Part shown: piece by piece, positions 3,026 through 38,134 of the stretch | Layout: every line of letters begins with the position of its first letter | Numbering within the stretch: position 1 is the first letter of the stretch | Origin: a virus | Virus record (IMG/VR): IMGVR_UViG_3300046012_000303 | Coordinates: 1-38,139 of that record | DNA length: 38,139 bases | Strand: one strand, 5' to 3' | Position numbers and translations under genes: made by a program | Notes under the pieces: generated by a model | What the model was told of the DNA's origin: nothing | What the model saw: only the letters and a program-made list of their open reading frames with translations | Databases searched by the model: none

Positions 3026-3144
3026 CCATCAATCTCCGTCTCTGAATTCTGCACCGCCAAACTTAGCCACTCATAGAGCGGCGCCCACTCATCTTTCCAG
3101 AAGCTCACCACACCGCCTAGCGGACAAGTGTGATGTTCTTCCAT
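3022..3144 (-). CDS. possible 40-aa protein at the end of the primase operon
   Basis: This leftward ORF begins inside the 3' end of the primase-helicase gene, with AGGAG five bases before its ATG, and runs into the gap between the convergent genes. The peptide is rich in Trp, Glu and aromatic residues (SFWKDEWAPLYEWL) and looks like one amphipathic helix. The tetranucleotide CTAG at 3022-3025 provides TAG stop codons on both strands. No family is recognised. The good ribosome binding site and tight packing argue for it. Confidence 0.5.
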   Translation of the reverse strand: MEEHHTCPLGGVVSFWKDEWAPLYEWLSLAVQNSETEIDG

Positions 3145-5618
3145 CCGCTCTCCTCCATTCCTCGCCCGAGCGGTATCATAACTTTCTTGAGTCCCTTTTC
3201 TTCGGCGATCTCTTTCATTCTCATTTGAAATGTCCTCAATGTAACAGGCCTTGCAACCCCCTGATTGAGTGAGAAACCGGAGTAGGCTTCGTACAATTGG
3301 GTTTCGGAGGTGGGGGGAGAACTCTTCGACCCAGTTTGAGCCGCCTCCCGGCCGAAAGGGTCGACGCGCACTGCCGCACTGGCCTCCACCCAATACCGAA
3401 CGCTGTCATTGTTGTGCGCCACGTCCTGAAGGTGTTCCTCATGGCTCTTCGGCAGCGTGTAGTCGTTGTTTTTCAGAAGCCGTGTGATACCCCGCACCGC
3501 CCACGCCGCAATCTGTTCCCGCTCCTCGGCCACGATCTGATTGGCCAGATCGGCGATGCGCTCTTCACGGCTGATCTTGTTCCAGAAGCCGATGATCAAC
3601 CAGCGACGGTTGAAGCCAGCACTGGTATCAGCCGACTTCGGTAGATGGTTCGATGCAAACCAATGCATCGACTGCGGCCGGAAGTGGAAGAGGGGTCCGT
3701 TCTTGCGCTGGGCTTCGATGCTCGATCCATCGACGATCTGCTTGAAGCTATCACCGGCTATCTTGTCTTTCTCCGACAGCTCACCCGCGATGTTGAGCAG
3801 CTTGCCGACGAGCGCCGAGGGTCCGAACTTGTCACCCCACATTTCCGGCTTGAGAGCCGAGACGACTTCGGGCGGCATCAACGCCTCGACGATGTTGAGG
3901 AGCTGAGACTTGCCGGTGCCTGCCATCCCGTAGAGCAAGGCCACGCGGGCGTACCGAGTGCCGACGCCGAACATCGTCGCCGCCATCAGTTCCTCCAGGG
4001 CCATCTTCTTCTCGGTGATGTCAATGTCCGGCCCAGCCTCGTCGTTCGTCCAGCACCGGTCGAGGAACGTCTGGAAGCGCTTTGCCCGGTCGGACTCCTC
4101 GGGGAGATACCGATATGGCATCGTGTAAGTGCAACCGTAGCTCGGGTCGTGTGGCAGAATTCTCAGTTCTTCGGTCACGTAACCGTTGGCGAAGTTGATG
4201 CCACAGCGGGGATCGGTGCGCAGTTCCTTCGTGCACAACGTACCCATCGTAGATACGATCCCGGTGTGATCGCCTCGTTTCTTCGCGGCGGGGAGACTGC
4301 CGAACTTGTCGGCAACGATCCGCATCAGGTCTTCGCGATCGACCTTCCTCCAGTGCGACCCGCTCCATTGCCAGAACGTGTCGGTGTGGAAGCGCAGCTC
4401 ACCGTAGGAGCTGACATCTTCGATGACCGCCTTGGCGATCTCAGTGTGGTCCATACCCTTGATCTCACCCTGGCGGGATTCCCGAACGCGGGTCTTGAGG
4501 ACCGACATCGTGAGTTGCTTACCCGAACTCTCGTGAATGAAGCGGAGCAGGCGCTCCGTCCGCATCGGGTCGAGAGATTCCGACCGTGAGATGCGATCGA
4601 GCACGTAGCTCGCCGTCTCCATCCAGGCGTCCGTATTAGCTGAACTCTTACTGAACTCGGACGTCATGTAGGCAATGAGCTGATCGTACGACCACTCTTC
4701 GTGCTCGATGGTGAACTCGAGCCCGTATTTCTTCTTGGTCTCATCGTCGATACCGGCGTCCCAACCCTTCGGCAGCGTCTTCTTGCGCTCAAGGACGTCA
4801 CGAACGAGGAACCCGATCAGGCTGGAGACGCCTTTCTGGATGTCCAGTTCGTCGCCGGCGATCTTCTCGACACAGCTCTCATGCCACGCCGCCATGCGCT
4901 CGATGGCTTCCTTGAGGGACAGCTCGCCGCGTGTCACACCTTGCGCCCAGAGACCGGCGACCTTAATCATCTGGTTGTCGCGGGAGCCGAGCGACACGTA
5001 ATCGGTGACTCGGGTCCAACCCGAGTGGCTCAGCTCGACGCCGTGCGCCAGTAGCGCTTGACGCAGCAGATTCTCGATCTCACGCGGGATGTGCGGGAGG
5101 TCGTCTAGGATATCGAGCAGTTCACAGTTAGCGATGTAGGGCCGCTTCGTGTCCGGATGGATCGATGGCGGCAACACGATCTGTGTCCGCGTGGAGAGCA
5201 ACTCGACGATCGTCTGGCTCTCTTGCATGTTCGGATCGGGATGAGCCTTCTTGATACGGAAGGTTTTCAGCGGGCCGCTGACCGGCTGCTTGAAGGCGAG
5301 GGCCATACCCTTGGAGCCGATACGCTGCCACGGGCTCATGCAGGGTGAGAGCACCTGCATGATGACGTCCTTGATCGCTTCGTCGGTGCTGTCGATGTCG
5401 ACCATGCACAGGCCGGACTGCGGGCCGAGTACGATACCGATGTTCGAGAGCGGATAGGCCTTCAGCCAGTACTCCTGCTCAGCAAGGGACGGCATCTTCT
5501 CGGCGTAGTACTGCCAGCCATCTGTCAGTGGCATCTTGTCATTCTGCTTCAGCGGAATGACTGGCAGGCCGCGCTTCCAATACTCAGGGGCGTTGTCAGC
5601 GAAAATCATGTTAGTCAT
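3117..5618 (-). CDS. Prim-Pol / SF3 helicase replication protein (833 aa)
   Basis: This is a two-domain replicative primase-helicase. The N-terminal archaeo-eukaryotic Prim-Pol domain (about residues 5-190) has the catalytic DxD in MVDIDS (D74, D76) and the family signature VLPPSIHPDT. The C-terminal superfamily 3 helicase has Walker A GMAGTGKS (about 564-571), a Walker-B-like region NIAGELSE (about 609-616), motif C FASNHLP (about 654-660) and an arginine-finger pair FNRRW (R671, R672). It should unwind and prime phage DNA, as P4- and D5-type proteins do. The ATG at 5618 is preferred over one 24 bases upstream because AGGAAGG lies just before it. It overlaps the upstream gene by eight bases. 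Confidence 0.93.
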   Translation of the reverse strand: MTNMIFADNAPEYWKRGLPVIPLKQNDKMPLTDGWQYYAEKMPSLAEQEYWLKAYPLSNIGIVLGPQSGLCMVDIDSTDEAIKDVIMQVLSPCMSPWQRIGSKGMALAFKQPVSGPLKTFRIKKAHPDPNMQESQTIVELLSTRTQIVLPPSIHPDTKRPYIANCELLDILDDLPHIPREIENLLRQALLAHGVELSHSGWTRVTDYVSLGSRDNQMIKVAGLWAQGVTRGELSLKEAIERMAAWHESCVEKIAGDELDIQKGVSSLIGFLVRDVLERKKTLPKGWDAGIDDETKKKYGLEFTIEHEEWSYDQLIAYMTSEFSKSSANTDAWMETASYVLDRISRSESLDPMRTERLLRFIHESSGKQLTMSVLKTRVRESRQGEIKGMDHTEIAKAVIEDVSSYGELRFHTDTFWQWSGSHWRKVDREDLMRIVADKFGSLPAAKKRGDHTGIVSTMGTLCTKELRTDPRCGINFANGYVTEELRILPHDPSYGCTYTMPYRYLPEESDRAKRFQTFLDRCWTNDEAGPDIDITEKKMALEELMAATMFGVGTRYARVALLYGMAGTGKSQLLNIVEALMPPEVVSALKPEMWGDKFGPSALVGKLLNIAGELSEKDKIAGDSFKQIVDGSSIEAQRKNGPLFHFRPQSMHWFASNHLPKSADTSAGFNRRWLIIGFWNKISREERIADLANQIVAEEREQIAAWAVRGITRLLKNNDYTLPKSHEEHLQDVAHNNDSVRYWVEASAAVRVDPFGREAAQTGSKSSPPTSETQLYEAYSGFSLNQGVARPVTLRTFQMRMKEIAEEKGLKKVMIPLGRGMEESGWKNITLVR

Positions 5619-6096
5619 TGGGACCTTCCTCAATACACGCACGCAGCCGGTCCACGATGCGCGTACGCATATCGGGATCGAGTTCAGTGGCGAAGATGTC
5701 CAGGATCAGCTCCTGGAACTGGTGAATACGCTTCAGCCCAACGGCTCGCTCGTTGATCGAGACGACTTTTTCGAGCAGCGCCGCACTGGTTCGGAACCAA
5801 GACATGCGCTCGGCGACGTCTTCATCGCTGATTTTGTCGCCGAAATTGCTCATTTCGTCGTACAATTTGGTCGCTTCTTGCTCCAAAACAGCCCATTTAT
5901 CGGCGTTTTCACCGAAAAACAGGCCATTTTTGGGGATTTCCGGCGCTTTTTGACCGAAAACACGCAGAAAGTCCCGTAATTCAGGTGAATACGGGCAATC
6001 TTCTGCATCTAGGTAGGTGGGGTCGTTAGCGAGGGATGCGGCGATGATCCGGAGCGGTGTGAGGCTCTTCGGATCCAGGGTGGGGTACTCGGACAT
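5611..6096 (-). CDS. hypothetical helical protein upstream of primase (161 aa)
   Basis: The product looks almost entirely helical. The C-terminal half (about 95-155) has a long heptad-like pattern (SAALLEKVVSINERA and onward) ending in TRIVDRL. It is the first gene of the leftward operon and overlaps the primase-helicase gene by eight bases, so the two are probably co-translated. Small helical proteins of this size can be replication accessory factors or small terminase subunits. Its position, divergent from the large terminase, does not settle which. No motif decides the function, and the ribosome binding site is weak. Confidence 0.7.
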   Translation of the reverse strand: MSEYPTLDPKSLTPLRIIAASLANDPTYLDAEDCPYSPELRDFLRVFGQKAPEIPKNGLFFGENADKWAVLEQEATKLYDEMSNFGDKISDEDVAERMSWFRTSAALLEKVVSINERAVGLKRIHQFQELILDIFATELDPDMRTRIVDRLRACIEEGPND

Positions 6097-6169: not shown

Positions 6170-6187
6170 TTCATCAGTACTGAAGAA
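6170..6187. promoter_or_regulatory. near-perfect copy of the 18-bp palindrome, candidate operator
   Basis: TTCATCAGTACTGAAGAA differs at one position from the perfect palindrome at 127-144, and the identity extends to 16 contiguous bases (6174-6189) in inverted orientation. The site is in the 136-base region between the divergent primase operon and the small genes leading to the terminase, where a repressor could control both directions. Confidence 0.55.
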
Positions 6188-34658: not shown

Positions 34659-36308
34659 ATGCAAGACTTCTCCGTTATCCCAAGCAGCGACAATATCGAC
34701 GACAGCCTTCCGCTGTTGTTGGGCAACGATGAAACGTGCATCTCCTGCAGCGCCGGCAGCAGCTTCCCGACGAGCGACCTCTACATTGGTATGATCTGCT
34801 TCCGTACCGATCAGCCCACCGATTCTGGTGGCGACTACAAGCTGATCGCTACCGACCCCTCGGCCGATTGGGTCCTGATGCGGGACTATTCGAAGACGGT
34901 CGTCCATCTCGAAGACATTTCGATCCCGGTTTTCGGCGCTGCAGGCGGAAGCCATTCCTCGGGCCTCGTCCCGGACCCGGGCGCGACCACTGGCTCTAAG
35001 CGTTTCCTTTGCGAGAATTCGTCCTGGGTCGAGATCGATCCGGGCCGTGAAGCCAACAAGTTCAAGCCTTCAGCCGCAAGCCCCGCCGCGATGAGTGTGG
35101 TTGTAGCAGCGGGCTTCTTCTCATCCGTGAAGCCAGACGGCACGCAGGCCCGGACGGAATACAGCCAGCAGACTGTTACCATAACATCGGCTCCGACCAC
35201 CACCGGTCAGTCCCGCATCGACTTGATCGTGATCGACCCCACGACAGGCGTTGCCGACAAGATTACCGGCACCGCAGGCACGTCGCCCTCGGCTCCCGCG
35301 ATGACCGCCGGCAAGCTCCTTATCGCCACTGTTGCGGTCGGCAACAGCGTCTCATCAATCGACGCCACAGCCATCACGGATACACGGGCCGTCTGGCAGC
35401 AGGACGTGCCCGGCACGCGGTGGTGTATAGCCGGGGGCACTGCCGATGCCCTGACGATGACTTACTCTCCAGCGTTCACCGCTCTCTCTGACGGGCTCGA
35501 GATTTCATGGCGGAACCCTAATTCCTCGAACGCCACCACAGCACCGACTGCCACCATTGGCAGCTTCTCGGCCCTGACGATCACCAAGAACGGCGGACAG
35601 GCGTTGGCGATCGGCGACCTGCCGGCCAACGCCGAGATGCGCGGCCGGATCAACGCGACGACGAGCCACCTGGAGCTGGTCGGAGGCGGTGGGAGTTTCT
35701 CTTCGTTCGATACGGGTGACGTTAAACACACAGCGAAATCCTCGGCCCCTTCGGGCTGGGTGCTGATGAACGACGGCACCATTGGTGACGCGAGTTCGAG
35801 CGCCACGACCCGGGCGAACGCCGACTGTCATGCACTGTTTGTACTGTTGTGGAACAACATCTCGAATACCTACTGCCCGGTTGCGGGTGGTCGAGGTTCT
35901 TCAGCAGAAGCGGACTGGTCGACCCACCATCAAATTTCGATACCGAAGGCCCTTGGCCGTGCATTGGCATCGGCCGGTGCTGGCAGCGGGCTCACATCGC
36001 GGGCTCTTGGTCAAATCCTGGGTGAAGAAACACATACGTTGACAGCCGCCGAACAGGCGAGCATGTCGGTGTCGGGTAGTGCATCAGGAACGGTCAGTAT
36101 CGGAATTAATCTTCCGGTCCAGGAAACCGAAGGCGACGGAGGTGGCGCAAATAGCCTTCAAGGTTCGTCTGATGGTGCCGTCACAACTATGGCGGTGTCC
36201 GGCTCATCAAGTGTAAGTTTGGGCATTTCTGGTACGGCAGCAGGCAGTGGGGCTGCACATGAAAATATGCAGCCCACCCTGTTCCTGAACTTCTTGATGA
36301 AGCTCTAA
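34659..36308 (+). CDS. tail fibre with tail-collar domain (549 aa)
   Basis: The protein is Ser/Thr/Ala/Gly-rich and beta-rich throughout. Residues about 365-545 match the phage tail collar domain: SGWVLMNDGTIG, LFVLLWN, ALGRALA, then GEETHTLTAAEQ and the usual end HENMQPTLFLNFLMKL. It is the main candidate for a side or central fibre that binds the host surface. The TAA overlaps the TAG of the convergent oxygenase gene (CTAA at 36305-36308). No chaperone gene is seen next to it. Confidence 0.85.
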   Translation: MQDFSVIPSSDNIDDSLPLLLGNDETCISCSAGSSFPTSDLYIGMICFRTDQPTDSGGDYKLIATDPSADWVLMRDYSKTVVHLEDISIPVFGAAGGSHSSGLVPDPGATTGSKRFLCENSSWVEIDPGREANKFKPSAASPAAMSVVVAAGFFSSVKPDGTQARTEYSQQTVTITSAPTTTGQSRIDLIVIDPTTGVADKITGTAGTSPSAPAMTAGKLLIATVAVGNSVSSIDATAITDTRAVWQQDVPGTRWCIAGGTADALTMTYSPAFTALSDGLEISWRNPNSSNATTAPTATIGSFSALTITKNGGQALAIGDLPANAEMRGRINATTSHLELVGGGGSFSSFDTGDVKHTAKSSAPSGWVLMNDGTIGDASSSATTRANADCHALFVLLWNNISNTYCPVAGGRGSSAEADWSTHHQISIPKALGRALASAGAGSGLTSRALGQILGEETHTLTAAEQASMSVSGSASGTVSIGINLPVQETEGDGGGANSLQGSSDGAVTTMAVSGSSSVSLGISGTAAGSGAAHENMQPTLFLNFLMKL

Positions 36309-36886
36309 GCGTACGTAGGCCCGTCAACCCAAGCCACGAGGCTGCGCCGTTTGCCGCTGATGATCGGCGTCACACGGTGCAACATAAAGGACGGGAAGAT
36401 GATTGCCGCCCCTCGCTTGCGGAGCTGCTCCTGGTCCACTCGCGCTGAAGCGAACTCCAGGTTGCCACCCTCGTAGTCTTTCGGGTCCGATAGCTGGATC
36501 GAGATTGAAAGCTTCCGCGTCTGGCACTGTCCAGGACCGTAGTCCATGTGCCAGTCGTAGTGCGAGCCTTCGTCGGTGTACTCAGTGAACTGAACCTCCG
36601 ACACCATGCCATCGACTCGCATGTTCCAGATTTGATTGTTGGCCCCGATAACCAGCCGGCCAAGGCGCTCGTAGAGCCCCTTGGTTGCTGCGACGAGCGG
36701 AATCCACCGAATGGTGTTGTTCCGCATCATCAGGTCCTGATCTTGATCCTCGATCTTCGCCTGCTCGGCCTGCAACTTCTCGCCGATCTCCAGGATGCGG
36801 TCGCACTCCTTGTCGTTAAAAGCGTCTGGCATCGATTGATAGAAGCCGAAACGCCCTGGCTCGCGGAGGTTAAACAGCAACGCCAA
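36305..36886 (-). CDS. 2OG-Fe(II) oxygenase, PKHD/PiuC-like (193 aa)
   Basis: A non-haem iron, 2-oxoglutarate-dependent hydroxylase. Iron ligands are H113 and D115 in YDWHMD and H170 in LHRVTPI; R180/R181 (GKRRSLVAW) should bind 2-oxoglutarate. The N-terminal NLREPGRFGFYQSMPDAF is typical of PKHD-type hydroxylases. The start is TTG (36886, or 36880), overlapping the end of the GapR-like gene, so the two form a leftward operon. Substrate is unknown: phage homologues are thought to modify proteins or nucleotides, and nothing here decides. Confidence 0.85.
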   Translation of the reverse strand: MALLFNLREPGRFGFYQSMPDAFNDKECDRILEIGEKLQAEQAKIEDQDQDLMMRNNTIRWIPLVAATKGLYERLGRLVIGANNQIWNMRVDGMVSEVQFTEYTDEGSHYDWHMDYGPGQCQTRKLSISIQLSDPKDYEGGNLEFASARVDQEQLRKRGAAIIFPSFMLHRVTPIISGKRRSLVAWVDGPTYA

Positions 36887-37373
36887 CCGCCGTCAGGTAA
36901 CTGCTAAGCAGCACAGAGTTCTCCTTATAGGAGTCCGGATCCTTACGGATCTCGCACACCTGCGGGATCAGCTTCGATGTGAAGCCCTCGGCCTTCGCTT
37001 CCTTGAGCAGTTCCTTCACGTCTTCGCCGACGCTCTTGATCTGGGTGTCGATCTCATCCAGCTCCTCGACCTTCTCCTGCGCCCAACTCTTATCCTGGTC
37101 GGAGAAGGGGTCATCTGTCGGAGTTGCCTCGGCAGTATAGACGGTCACACCGAGCAGGACCGCAGCAGACTCCATCTCCTTGCGCTGCTCTTCAGCGTTC
37201 TCTTTCTTCTTTTCGGCACGGATCTTCTGGATGCCCGAGACCGGCATATTGAGATTCTTCATTTCAGCAACGACCGACTTACGGTTCTCGGTCAGTTCCT
37301 TCTTGGTCTCAAGCAGGCGATCGAAGCGATCGCAAAAGTCTTTGAGAGCACCAGCTACGTTGTCACCCATCAT
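36870..37373 (-). CDS. tandem GapR-like (DUF2312) DNA-binding protein (167 aa)
   Basis: Two GapR-like modules occur in one chain: residues about 8-76 and 97-165. Each has the family layout: a helix (FDRLLETKKELTE; ELDEIDTQIKSV), a K/E-rich middle with an AEAKG-type turn (VVAEMKNLNM; LLKEAKAEGF), an RK segment (IRAEKK; EIRKDP) and a closing helix ending LLGV or TAVGV. GapR is a nucleoid-associated protein of alphaproteobacteria that clamps overtwisted DNA; normally it is a single-module tetramer. The ATG at 37373 is chosen for AAGGAG six bases upstream; a GTG at 37403 lies inside the operator. A DNA role during replication or transcription is inferred. Confidence 0.75.
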   Translation of the reverse strand: MMGDNVAGALKDFCDRFDRLLETKKELTENRKSVVAEMKNLNMPVSGIQKIRAEKKKENAEEQRKEMESAAVLLGVTVYTAEATPTDDPFSDQDKSWAQEKVEELDEIDTQIKSVGEDVKELLKEAKAEGFTSKLIPQVCEIRKDPDSYKENSVLLSSYLTAVGVAV

Positions 37374-37388
37374 TTCGATCTCCTTACA

Positions 37389-37467
37389 AAAATGATTCAG
37401 CACTATTGTTGAATCGATCTGGATTTGTCTTGGCCCAAATAATTCAACAATAGTGCTGAATCATTTT
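37389..37467. promoter_or_regulatory. 26-bp inverted repeat, mirrored operators between divergent genes
   Basis: Bases 37389-37414 are exactly complementary to 37442-37467, with a 27-base spacer. Each arm is itself a weaker dyad (TTCA...TGAA: GATTCA at 37394, TGAATC at 37410). The arms stand just upstream of the ribosome binding sites of the leftward GapR-like gene and the rightward gene at 37485, so one protein bound at each arm could control both promoters symmetrically. Confidence 0.7.
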
Positions 37468-37484
37468 CTCAGGAGTGGTTCAGC

Positions 37485-37832
37485 ATGACCCAAATCGATC
37501 TGACGACGCTTTCGCAAGAGCAACTCTTGGCCCTTGCGGTAACCATCCCCCAGTTGGGGGAGGCTGTGAACGAGGAGCTGGACTGCCGCACCGCCTACTT
37601 CAGTATGGCCGAGGGCCTACACCATCTGGCCGTGGTTGTTGCCCGTGTCGAAGCCTTCCTCAAAGACACACGTCACACCGAGAGCGTCCGCGCCTTCATC
37701 ACTATGGGTGTGCCTGAAATTCTCAAGCGCGTGTTGGTAACTGCGCGCGTAGAGGGTGTTACGTACGAACCGCCAACACTCGACGAAGTGATGCAAAAAA
37801 CTTCATTGAATGAAGGTGACCCTGCCAAATAG
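37485..37832 (+). CDS. hypothetical protein (115 aa)
   Basis: AGGAG precedes the ATG by nine bases. The product is mostly helical (LSQEQLLALAVTIPQLGEAV, and a long helix around 30-65) with no membrane segment and two Cys/Met-rich spots. It is the first rightward gene after the mirrored operators, so it should be co-regulated with the GapR-like gene. No family is recognised. It is followed by the membrane protein gene 29 bases later. Confidence 0.65.
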   Translation: MTQIDLTTLSQEQLLALAVTIPQLGEAVNEELDCRTAYFSMAEGLHHLAVVVARVEAFLKDTRHTESVRAFITMGVPEILKRVLVTARVEGVTYEPPTLDEVMQKTSLNEGDPAK

Positions 37833-37861: not shown

Positions 37862-38134
37862 ATGGGCAGCGTTCAAGACATCCTGACGATCATCACGATC
37901 CCGCTTGTCGCTGCCCTTCTCGCCTATATCGAGGGCGTTCGTCGTAGCTCCAACACTTCAATCCGTGAAGTTTGGCAAGCCGTCGACGACGTGCGCGAAA
38001 AGCACGCCACCTTCGCGATCAAGGTCGCCACTGAATACGTGCATGGCGATCGCATGAAAGAATTCGAGACCCGGGTAATGCAAGCATTCGAGCGTCTCGA
38101 GAAGAAGGTCGATCGCATCTCGGAGGCTGAGTGA
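37862..38134 (+). CDS. membrane-anchored coiled-coil protein (90 aa)
   Basis: One hydrophobic segment at the N-terminus (ILTIITIPLVAALLAYI, residues 7-23) is followed by a charged helical region with heptad spacing (VWQAVDDVREKH, FERLEKKVDRI). Small phage proteins with this build are common near lysis genes, but I see no lysin in the window and cannot assign holin or spanin function. The stop overlaps the next gene's ATG. Confidence 0.6.
   Translation: MGSVQDILTIITIPLVAALLAYIEGVRRSSNTSIREVWQAVDDVREKHATFAIKVATEYVHGDRMKEFETRVMQAFERLEKKVDRISEAE

Follow-up and report, generated by a model that had tools for sequence, protein, structure and literature searches.

A two-module GapR-like protein kept with a divergent partner gene in four phages

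The question raised by the locus described here is what two GapR modules, joined in one chain, would do for a phage at the border between its tail and lysis genes. The locus is part of a 38,139-bp IMG/VR virus record (IMGVR_UViG_3300046012_000303), which was analyzed over its whole length, is referred to as the window in the following and represents a fragment of a tailed phage. Its closest kin, judged by the large terminase and the tail-fibre protein J, are the Achromobacter phages JWF and 2-1, Xylophilus phage Lumi and Caulobacter phage Seuss, and the window probably lacks about half of the phage genome because the genomes of the closest phages comprise 81-85 kb. The protein has two GapR modules, the tandem form is kept together with a divergent gene, orf115, in four phages, and the residues that distinguish the two modules are asymmetric in all four proteins. 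Our reading, which we give a probability of roughly 0.4, is that the fused and specialized GapR works as a single dimer-unit on AT-rich DNA, where it would shape or regulate the divergent late/lysis promoters. If true, phages would possess a DNA-topology protein at the boundary to lysis, and the orphan gene family orf115 would gain a function to look for. Moreover, whether GapR closes a ring or acts as an open clamp has so far been argued from structures of the symmetric protein, and a natural GapR with only one tetramer face, if true, would make this question testable by a comparison of two proteins.

Two GapR modules in one chain

In agreement with the initial annotation, which had proposed a two-module GapR-like protein, each half passes the curated cut-off of PF10073 (DUF2312; 22.6 bits) when scored singly. 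Module 1 reached 27.9 bits (E 1.7e-6, profile positions 2-62 of 72) and module 2 reached 44.0 bits (E 1.7e-11, profile positions 8-72), with 64.4 bits and two passing stretches for the whole protein. A PF10073 search at the DNA level returned the same two places (Table 1), and a hidden Markov model (HMM) from which the modules of the window had been left out recovered both with 23.8 and 42.3 bits. Solved GapR chains (6cfx, 6jyk, and others) were matched by the sequence of module 2 with a best E of 1.6e-7 and weaker values for the rest. Since the NCBIfam equivalog cut-off for GapR (NucAsocGapRCau) is not reached (52.3 bits vs. 140), the protein is termed GapR-like and not considered an ordinary GapR. 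In a tree of 50 GapR domains the branches leading to the window modules are very long (6.29 and 2.66; median 0.32), and neither module received a starred placement. Translation probably starts at ATG 37373, with AAGGAG six bases upstream, and not at GTG 37403; ATG 37370 is also possible.

The statement made earlier that GapR is normally a single-module protein is borne out by a broad survey. A single GapR place is present in each of 156 GapR-bearing annotated phage records, none of 82 other GapR frames (80 viral-contig loci and two Microcystis phages) is tandem, and rechecking those 28 of 385 alphaproteobacterial genomes that gave at least two GapR matches revealed one same-frame pair (genome G104). 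This other fusion, encoded in a prophage-like region (L185:7045-7569, identical in L195), likewise has two PF10073 modules and, with 174 amino acids, is 29% identical to the window protein from end to end. It differs in that each of its modules is typical, with about 100 bits, that tyrosine is present at both positions equivalent to GapR Tyr82 (by eye), and that its neighbors are dNMP-kinase-like and DNA-ligase-like genes (by eye). As both modules are typical, the fusion appears to be separate and younger. Another alphaproteobacterial genome (G068; L186, L187) contains two places at which a normal GapR gene and a divergent one are adjacent without being fused. The 156 phage records also establish that GapR is widespread in phages, contrary to a 2025 paper which reports GapR in phage as a first (PMC12185513). 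No paper on a tandem GapR was found by title or abstract within the open-licence literature.

A conserved pair with the divergent gene orf115

Relatives were picked by scanning with aligned J proteins, which provided 23 viral loci and, with Seuss included, 24 records. PF10073 matches occur in eight of these (seven over the cut-off), five of them ordinary single GapR proteins and three (L240, L243, and L248) open frames of 181-191 codons. The window protein aligns with the latter three from end to end (phmmer, 64.8-71.0 bits, about 30% identity), and each of the four tandem proteins has a PF10073 match with E <= 0.01. Because the single halves of the three relatives match a GapR HMM weakly (12.6-25.4 bits, with the window modules included in the HMM), it is the alignment over the full length that marks these proteins as tandem. 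Used as single queries, the tandem GapR, orf115 and J gave no match in the viral contig collection, and neither did the tandem GapR in the genome contig collection nor module 1 alone or the L248 tandem protein in the phage collection. Near matches to the window were absent from the annotated phage collection, as were near matches to L243 from the plasmid collection.

In L240, L243, and L248 the minus strand carries the tandem gene, which follows J or tail genes and diverges from a homolog of orf115 (27-41 bits by phmmer; also matched by an orf115 profile), with endolysin and/or spanin-like genes beyond it. In the window, the slot held in relatives by endolysin, spanin and other lysis genes is occupied by the short gene that follows orf115. 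The orf115 profile matched 3/26 related records, which are the same three that have the tandem GapR. Both genes are absent from several large relatives including Seuss and JWF (L246), and phages 2-1 and Lumi, searched for orf115 only, do not have this gene. Other relatives without the pair are fragments and could have lost tandem GapR and orf115. Among the relatives picked by J, the conserved pair is tandem GapR with divergent orf115, just before the lysis genes.

The starts of the two genes are 111 bp apart in the window. With a GC content of 38, 44, 52, and 44%, the intergenic regions of the four phages are all AT-richer than their loci (54-60%). As the tandem gene diverges from orf115 across this AT-richer gap, its product would most likely act on the divergent late/lysis promoters, either by shaping this region or by regulating it.

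The same arrangement bears on a further explanation, namely that the products of tandem GapR and orf115 form a complex of helical partners, perhaps a lysis-timing or inhibitor pair, in which DNA binding has been lost. The divergent orientation in 4/4 phages and the joint occurrence in the same records would suit such a complex, as would the character of orf115, which matches no Pfam family, reaches no PHROG family at better than E 0.2 and is predicted to be mostly helical, albeit with low confidence (predicted local distance difference test, pLDDT, of 44). A search of the 385 alphaproteobacterial genomes, run without a positive control, found orf115 in none. On the other hand, divergent neighbors are often merely co-regulated, and the lysines at GapR positions 42 and 49 are retained in both modules of all four tandem proteins. 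In our view, a complex devoid of DNA binding is rather improbable.

Specialized modules and the proposed dimer-unit

For a comparison of residues, the four tandem proteins were aligned with GapR from Caulobacter and 60 other single-module domains. In 4/4 proteins, module 1 has lysine at positions 42, 49, and 66, arginine in place of I41 and alanine at the position of Tyr82, and module 2 has lysine at 42 and 49, isoleucine or leucine in place of K34 and tyrosine at 82, a residue present in 61/61 single-module GapRs of the alignment. Compared with a family mean of -2.5, the net charge is +1, +1, -2, and +3 for the first modules and -9, -7, -6, and -10 for the second modules, the window protein having -9. 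In the window protein, K34, K42, K49, K60, and K66 are present in module 1 together with lysine at R65, glycine at V57 and glutamate at I64. Module 2 contains K42, K49, K56, R65, K66, and Tyr82, and K34, K59, K60, and R63 are gone. Of the basic channel residues (K34, K42, K49, K56, K59, K60, R63, R65, and K66), module 1 thus has 6/9, counting R65K, and module 2 has 5/9.

An AlphaFold2 model of the tandem protein (pLDDT 90.7, predicted template modeling score, pTM, 0.72) comprises alpha1 and one unbroken alpha2 (44-73) in module 1, and a split alpha2/alpha3 (134-143 and 145-161) in module 2. It is by a long vs. split alpha2 that the open and closed forms of GapR are told apart; residue 82 is part of the tetramer interface, and in the open tetramer bound to DNA each dimer-unit contributes one alpha2 (PMC7498317). 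GapR lacking its last 17 residues forms a dimer-unit that still binds DNA with AT preference (PMC8510090). Taken together, the residue pattern, the predicted helices and these papers suggest that one chain represents one dimer-unit with one tetramer face. Two GapR modules would have fused and then diverged, with an antiparallel alpha1 pair turning one chain into one dimer-unit. Module 1 would contribute much of the positive charge but lack the tetramer contact made by Tyr82, and the remaining contact of this kind would come from module 2. AT-rich or overtwisted DNA would be bound by a lone dimer-unit or by an open, C-shaped pair joined via module 2, and the full ring of GapR would not be closed by the tandem protein. 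A bolder version, according to which the protein is a natural asymmetric single-chain GapR that has kept one tetramer face and lost the other, has its clamp locked open and forms a conserved two-gene switch with orf115 where the late and lysis genes of Seuss/JWF-like phages meet, seems less likely than not to us.

The proposed unit resembles the nucleoid-associated protein GapR of Caulobacter (DUF2312, UPF0335, PF10073) in that both halves pass the Pfam cut-off, K42 and K49 occur in both modules and alpha1 is followed by alpha2/alpha3 in the model. In contrast to that protein, there are two modules per chain, Tyr82 is confined to module 2 and most K56, K59, and R63 positions are lost. The truncated GapR is comparable to the proposed unit as a dimer-unit with AT preference and without the tetramer helix; however, it is laboratory-made and consists of two chains, whereas its phage counterpart is a single chain that keeps one predicted tetramer face. 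A third comparison concerns phage T4 DsbA, which binds A/T-rich sites over late promoters (PMC2988020) and has been called a GapR homolog (PMC7824862). The GapR-like gene of the window has a late/lysis neighborhood; DsbA, however, is a single protein of about 10 kDa encoded beside gene 33, and its putative likeness to tandem GapR is drawn from papers. The position at the tail/lysis border and the analogy to DsbA lead us to prefer a local role in DNA architecture or regulation over host takeover.

Several findings weigh against this reading. K59 is gone in 8/8 modules, K56 in 4/4 first modules, and R63 is replaced by glutamate, aspartate or glutamine in 4/4 second modules; fewer channel residues are kept in the relatives than in the window protein, and with so many of them lost, the protein may bind DNA weakly or no longer at all. 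The dimer core of module 2 is partly polar, with alanine for L20 in 3/4 proteins and lysine, lysine, arginine, and serine for I23. Foldseek returned nothing at E <= 0.001 in PDB or BFVD and did not list GapR, which is why we infer the dimer-unit from the model rather than read it off. DsbA itself is non-essential and had no effect in vitro (PMC2988020). No strong sigma-70 promoter was seen, and the inverted repeat between the divergent starts of the window is not conserved, the longest intergenic repeat of the relatives measuring 9 bp in L248 and 7 bp in L243, with none of at least 7 bp in L240. With regard to the fold, the best VIA-align rows, with Z values reaching 10.8, belong to unrelated proteins with long helices and lie below the level stated by the program for helical models, and GapR is absent from the matches listed. 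In several rows, residues 1-131 are matched to coiled coils of two helices (4afl: Z 10.2, root-mean-square deviation 2.4, 83 aligned residues), which would be compatible with, and does not prove, an intrachain alpha1 pairing.

The asymmetry of the modules also lends itself to another explanation. The tandem protein could serve as a decoy that joins host GapR via module 2, is capped by the Tyr-less module 1, and thereby disturbs ring closure and host replication. Tyrosine 82 is indeed present in module 2 and not in module 1 of all four proteins, and GapR is common in alphaproteobacteria (274/385 genomes). Of 16 words tested in the window, only GANTC, at which the methylase CcrM of alphaproteobacteria acts, is strongly depleted (45 vs. 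97.9 expected under the stricter model), with an about fivefold depletion in positions 1-36304 (36 vs. 192.5 expected). In the stretch examined of Caulobacter phage Seuss it is depleted tenfold (11 vs. 109), the depletion is mild in beta-proteobacterial phages, and loss of GANTC has been reported in pelagiphages (PMC9516812). As the depletion is like that in Seuss, an alphaproteobacterial host is likely, and a CcrM-bearing host of this kind would suit a decoy. Against a decoy, other interface residues of module 2 are altered (E74 kept in 2/4, L81 in 0/4), the window modules share only about 27-30% identity with host-type GapR, and a late, lysis-side location is odd for a takeover gene. We therefore regard a decoy as unlikely and retain the local, dimer-unit reading.

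The adjacent oxygenase and the inverted repeat

The initial annotation had also recognized an intact gene for an Fe(II)/2-oxoglutarate (2OG) hydroxylase and a perfect inverted repeat between the divergent starts, and both are real features of the window. The oxygenase scored 54.6 bits against PF13640 (cut-off 27), and H113, D115, H170, and R180 of the HxD...H...R signature are invariant in a six-row alignment. It shares these properties and a match to phrog_61, comprising cyanophage 2OG-Fe(II) oxygenases, with PKHD-type hydroxylase/PiuC and the cyanophage enzymes; unlike PiuC/YbiX, it stays below all four PRK05467 equivalog cut-offs (70.3 vs. 143; others lower). Its frame opens at TTG 36886 inside the GapR frame with an overlap of 17 bp, the true start being uncertain. 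Because the reading frames overlap on the same strand, co-transcription with GapR is likely. The convergent tail gene shares 4 bp with it at the stop codons.

This arrangement had given rise to the idea of a takeover cassette in which the oxygenase hydroxylates the tandem or the host GapR. Overlapping genes and intact catalytic residues speak for it, and at one other viral locus with a single GapR a distant 2OG oxygenase is encoded two genes upstream (L141:2121-3294), the next downstream gene resembling a terminase small subunit (by eye). Yet the co-occurrence check, set beforehand as the test that could refute the pairing, went against it. The oxygenase was found in none of the 24 J-related records (searched without a positive control), no GapR was found in 50 oxygenase-bearing viral records (50 of 80 loci), and L240, L243, and L248 have no oxygenase at the tandem-GapR slot; the steady partner is orf115 (3/3 tandem-GapR relatives). 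A neighbor survey covering 82 proteins from 147 neighbors listed (40 of 81 loci) gave other oxygenases as the commonest matches (8/82) and no GapR family among the top 25 families listed. We hold a joint cassette to be very improbable. A tail-modifying function of the oxygenase was considered and dropped, as only 2/82 neighbors match each of two tail-fibre families; two close homologs are located by tail-like genes (by eye).

The arms of the inverted repeat (26/26 complementary, 27 nt apart) form the longest such repeat in the window (next 17), and eight simulated 38-kb sequences reach at most 12. Each arm is an imperfect palindrome of 20 bp (16/20; attained by 69/5000 shuffled arms) and, in either direction, is followed after 3-4 bases by a ribosome-binding-like AGGAG. 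A palindrome in each arm is in keeping with one operator that is present twice and controls both genes, and in the window phage the palindromes would be operators of a regulator acting both ways. Seven small left-arm open reading frames, the candidate repeat binders, have no Pfam match, and the 20-mer of the right arm has no exact match in the viral contig collection. Mirrored operators as a conserved part of the unit, by contrast, did not hold up, the repeat being present in 0/3 tandem-GapR relatives. Since both are absent from relatives, oxygenase and inverted repeat look like additions in the window phage, the oxygenase presumably being a separate passenger.

Methylation control via GANTC in the operators was rejected, as three sites in 80 bp are not significant given 45 sites (p 0.157); relatives' intergenic regions holding 1, 0, and 0 sites weaken it further. 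In positions 36305-37832, GANTC is close to expectation (8 vs. 9.2), and a run of nine sites in 1528 bp has a p of 0.010 in 5000 random placements. Small counts per gene are 2 vs. 3.1 expected for the oxygenase, 4 vs. 4.0 for GapR and 0 vs. 1.2 for orf115. Recent acquisition of the whole cassette was dropped for tandem GapR and orf115, which are conserved at the same slot in relatives; the oxygenase alone is possibly a recent acquisition.

Table 1. Coordinates of features at the right end of the window.
Feature	Position	Strand	Basis
Tail protein	34659..36308	+	phrog_8763 tail protein, E 7e-27
2OG-Fe(II) oxygenase, prolyl-hydroxylase-like; accessory	36305..36886	-	PF13640, intact HxD...H...R
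Tandem (two-module) GapR-like protein, 167 codons	36870..37373	-	PF10073, both halves; full-length homologs L240, L243, L248
GapR module 1	37173..37355	-	PF10073 DNA-level search
GapR module 2	36882..37073	-	PF10073 DNA-level search
Inverted repeat, left arm, with 20-bp imperfect palindrome and GANTC sites	37389..37414	.	
Inverted repeat, right arm	37442..37467	.	
orf115, 115 codons, divergent gene, conserved partner of tandem GapR	37485..37832	+	homologs face tandem GapR in L240, L243, L248
Short protein with hydrophobic N-terminus	37862..38134	+	phrog_29007 (family without assigned function)

Elsewhere in the window, the minus strand encodes a DNA primase at 3117-5642 (phrog_1156, E 4.5e-96), with the late genes on the other strand. 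An 18-bp palindrome that is perfect is located at 127-144, and a copy with one mismatch is found at 6170-6187, between the leftward early genes and the terminase. Two copies were obtained in 0/100 shuffles, and the palindromes look like operators of another phage regulator.

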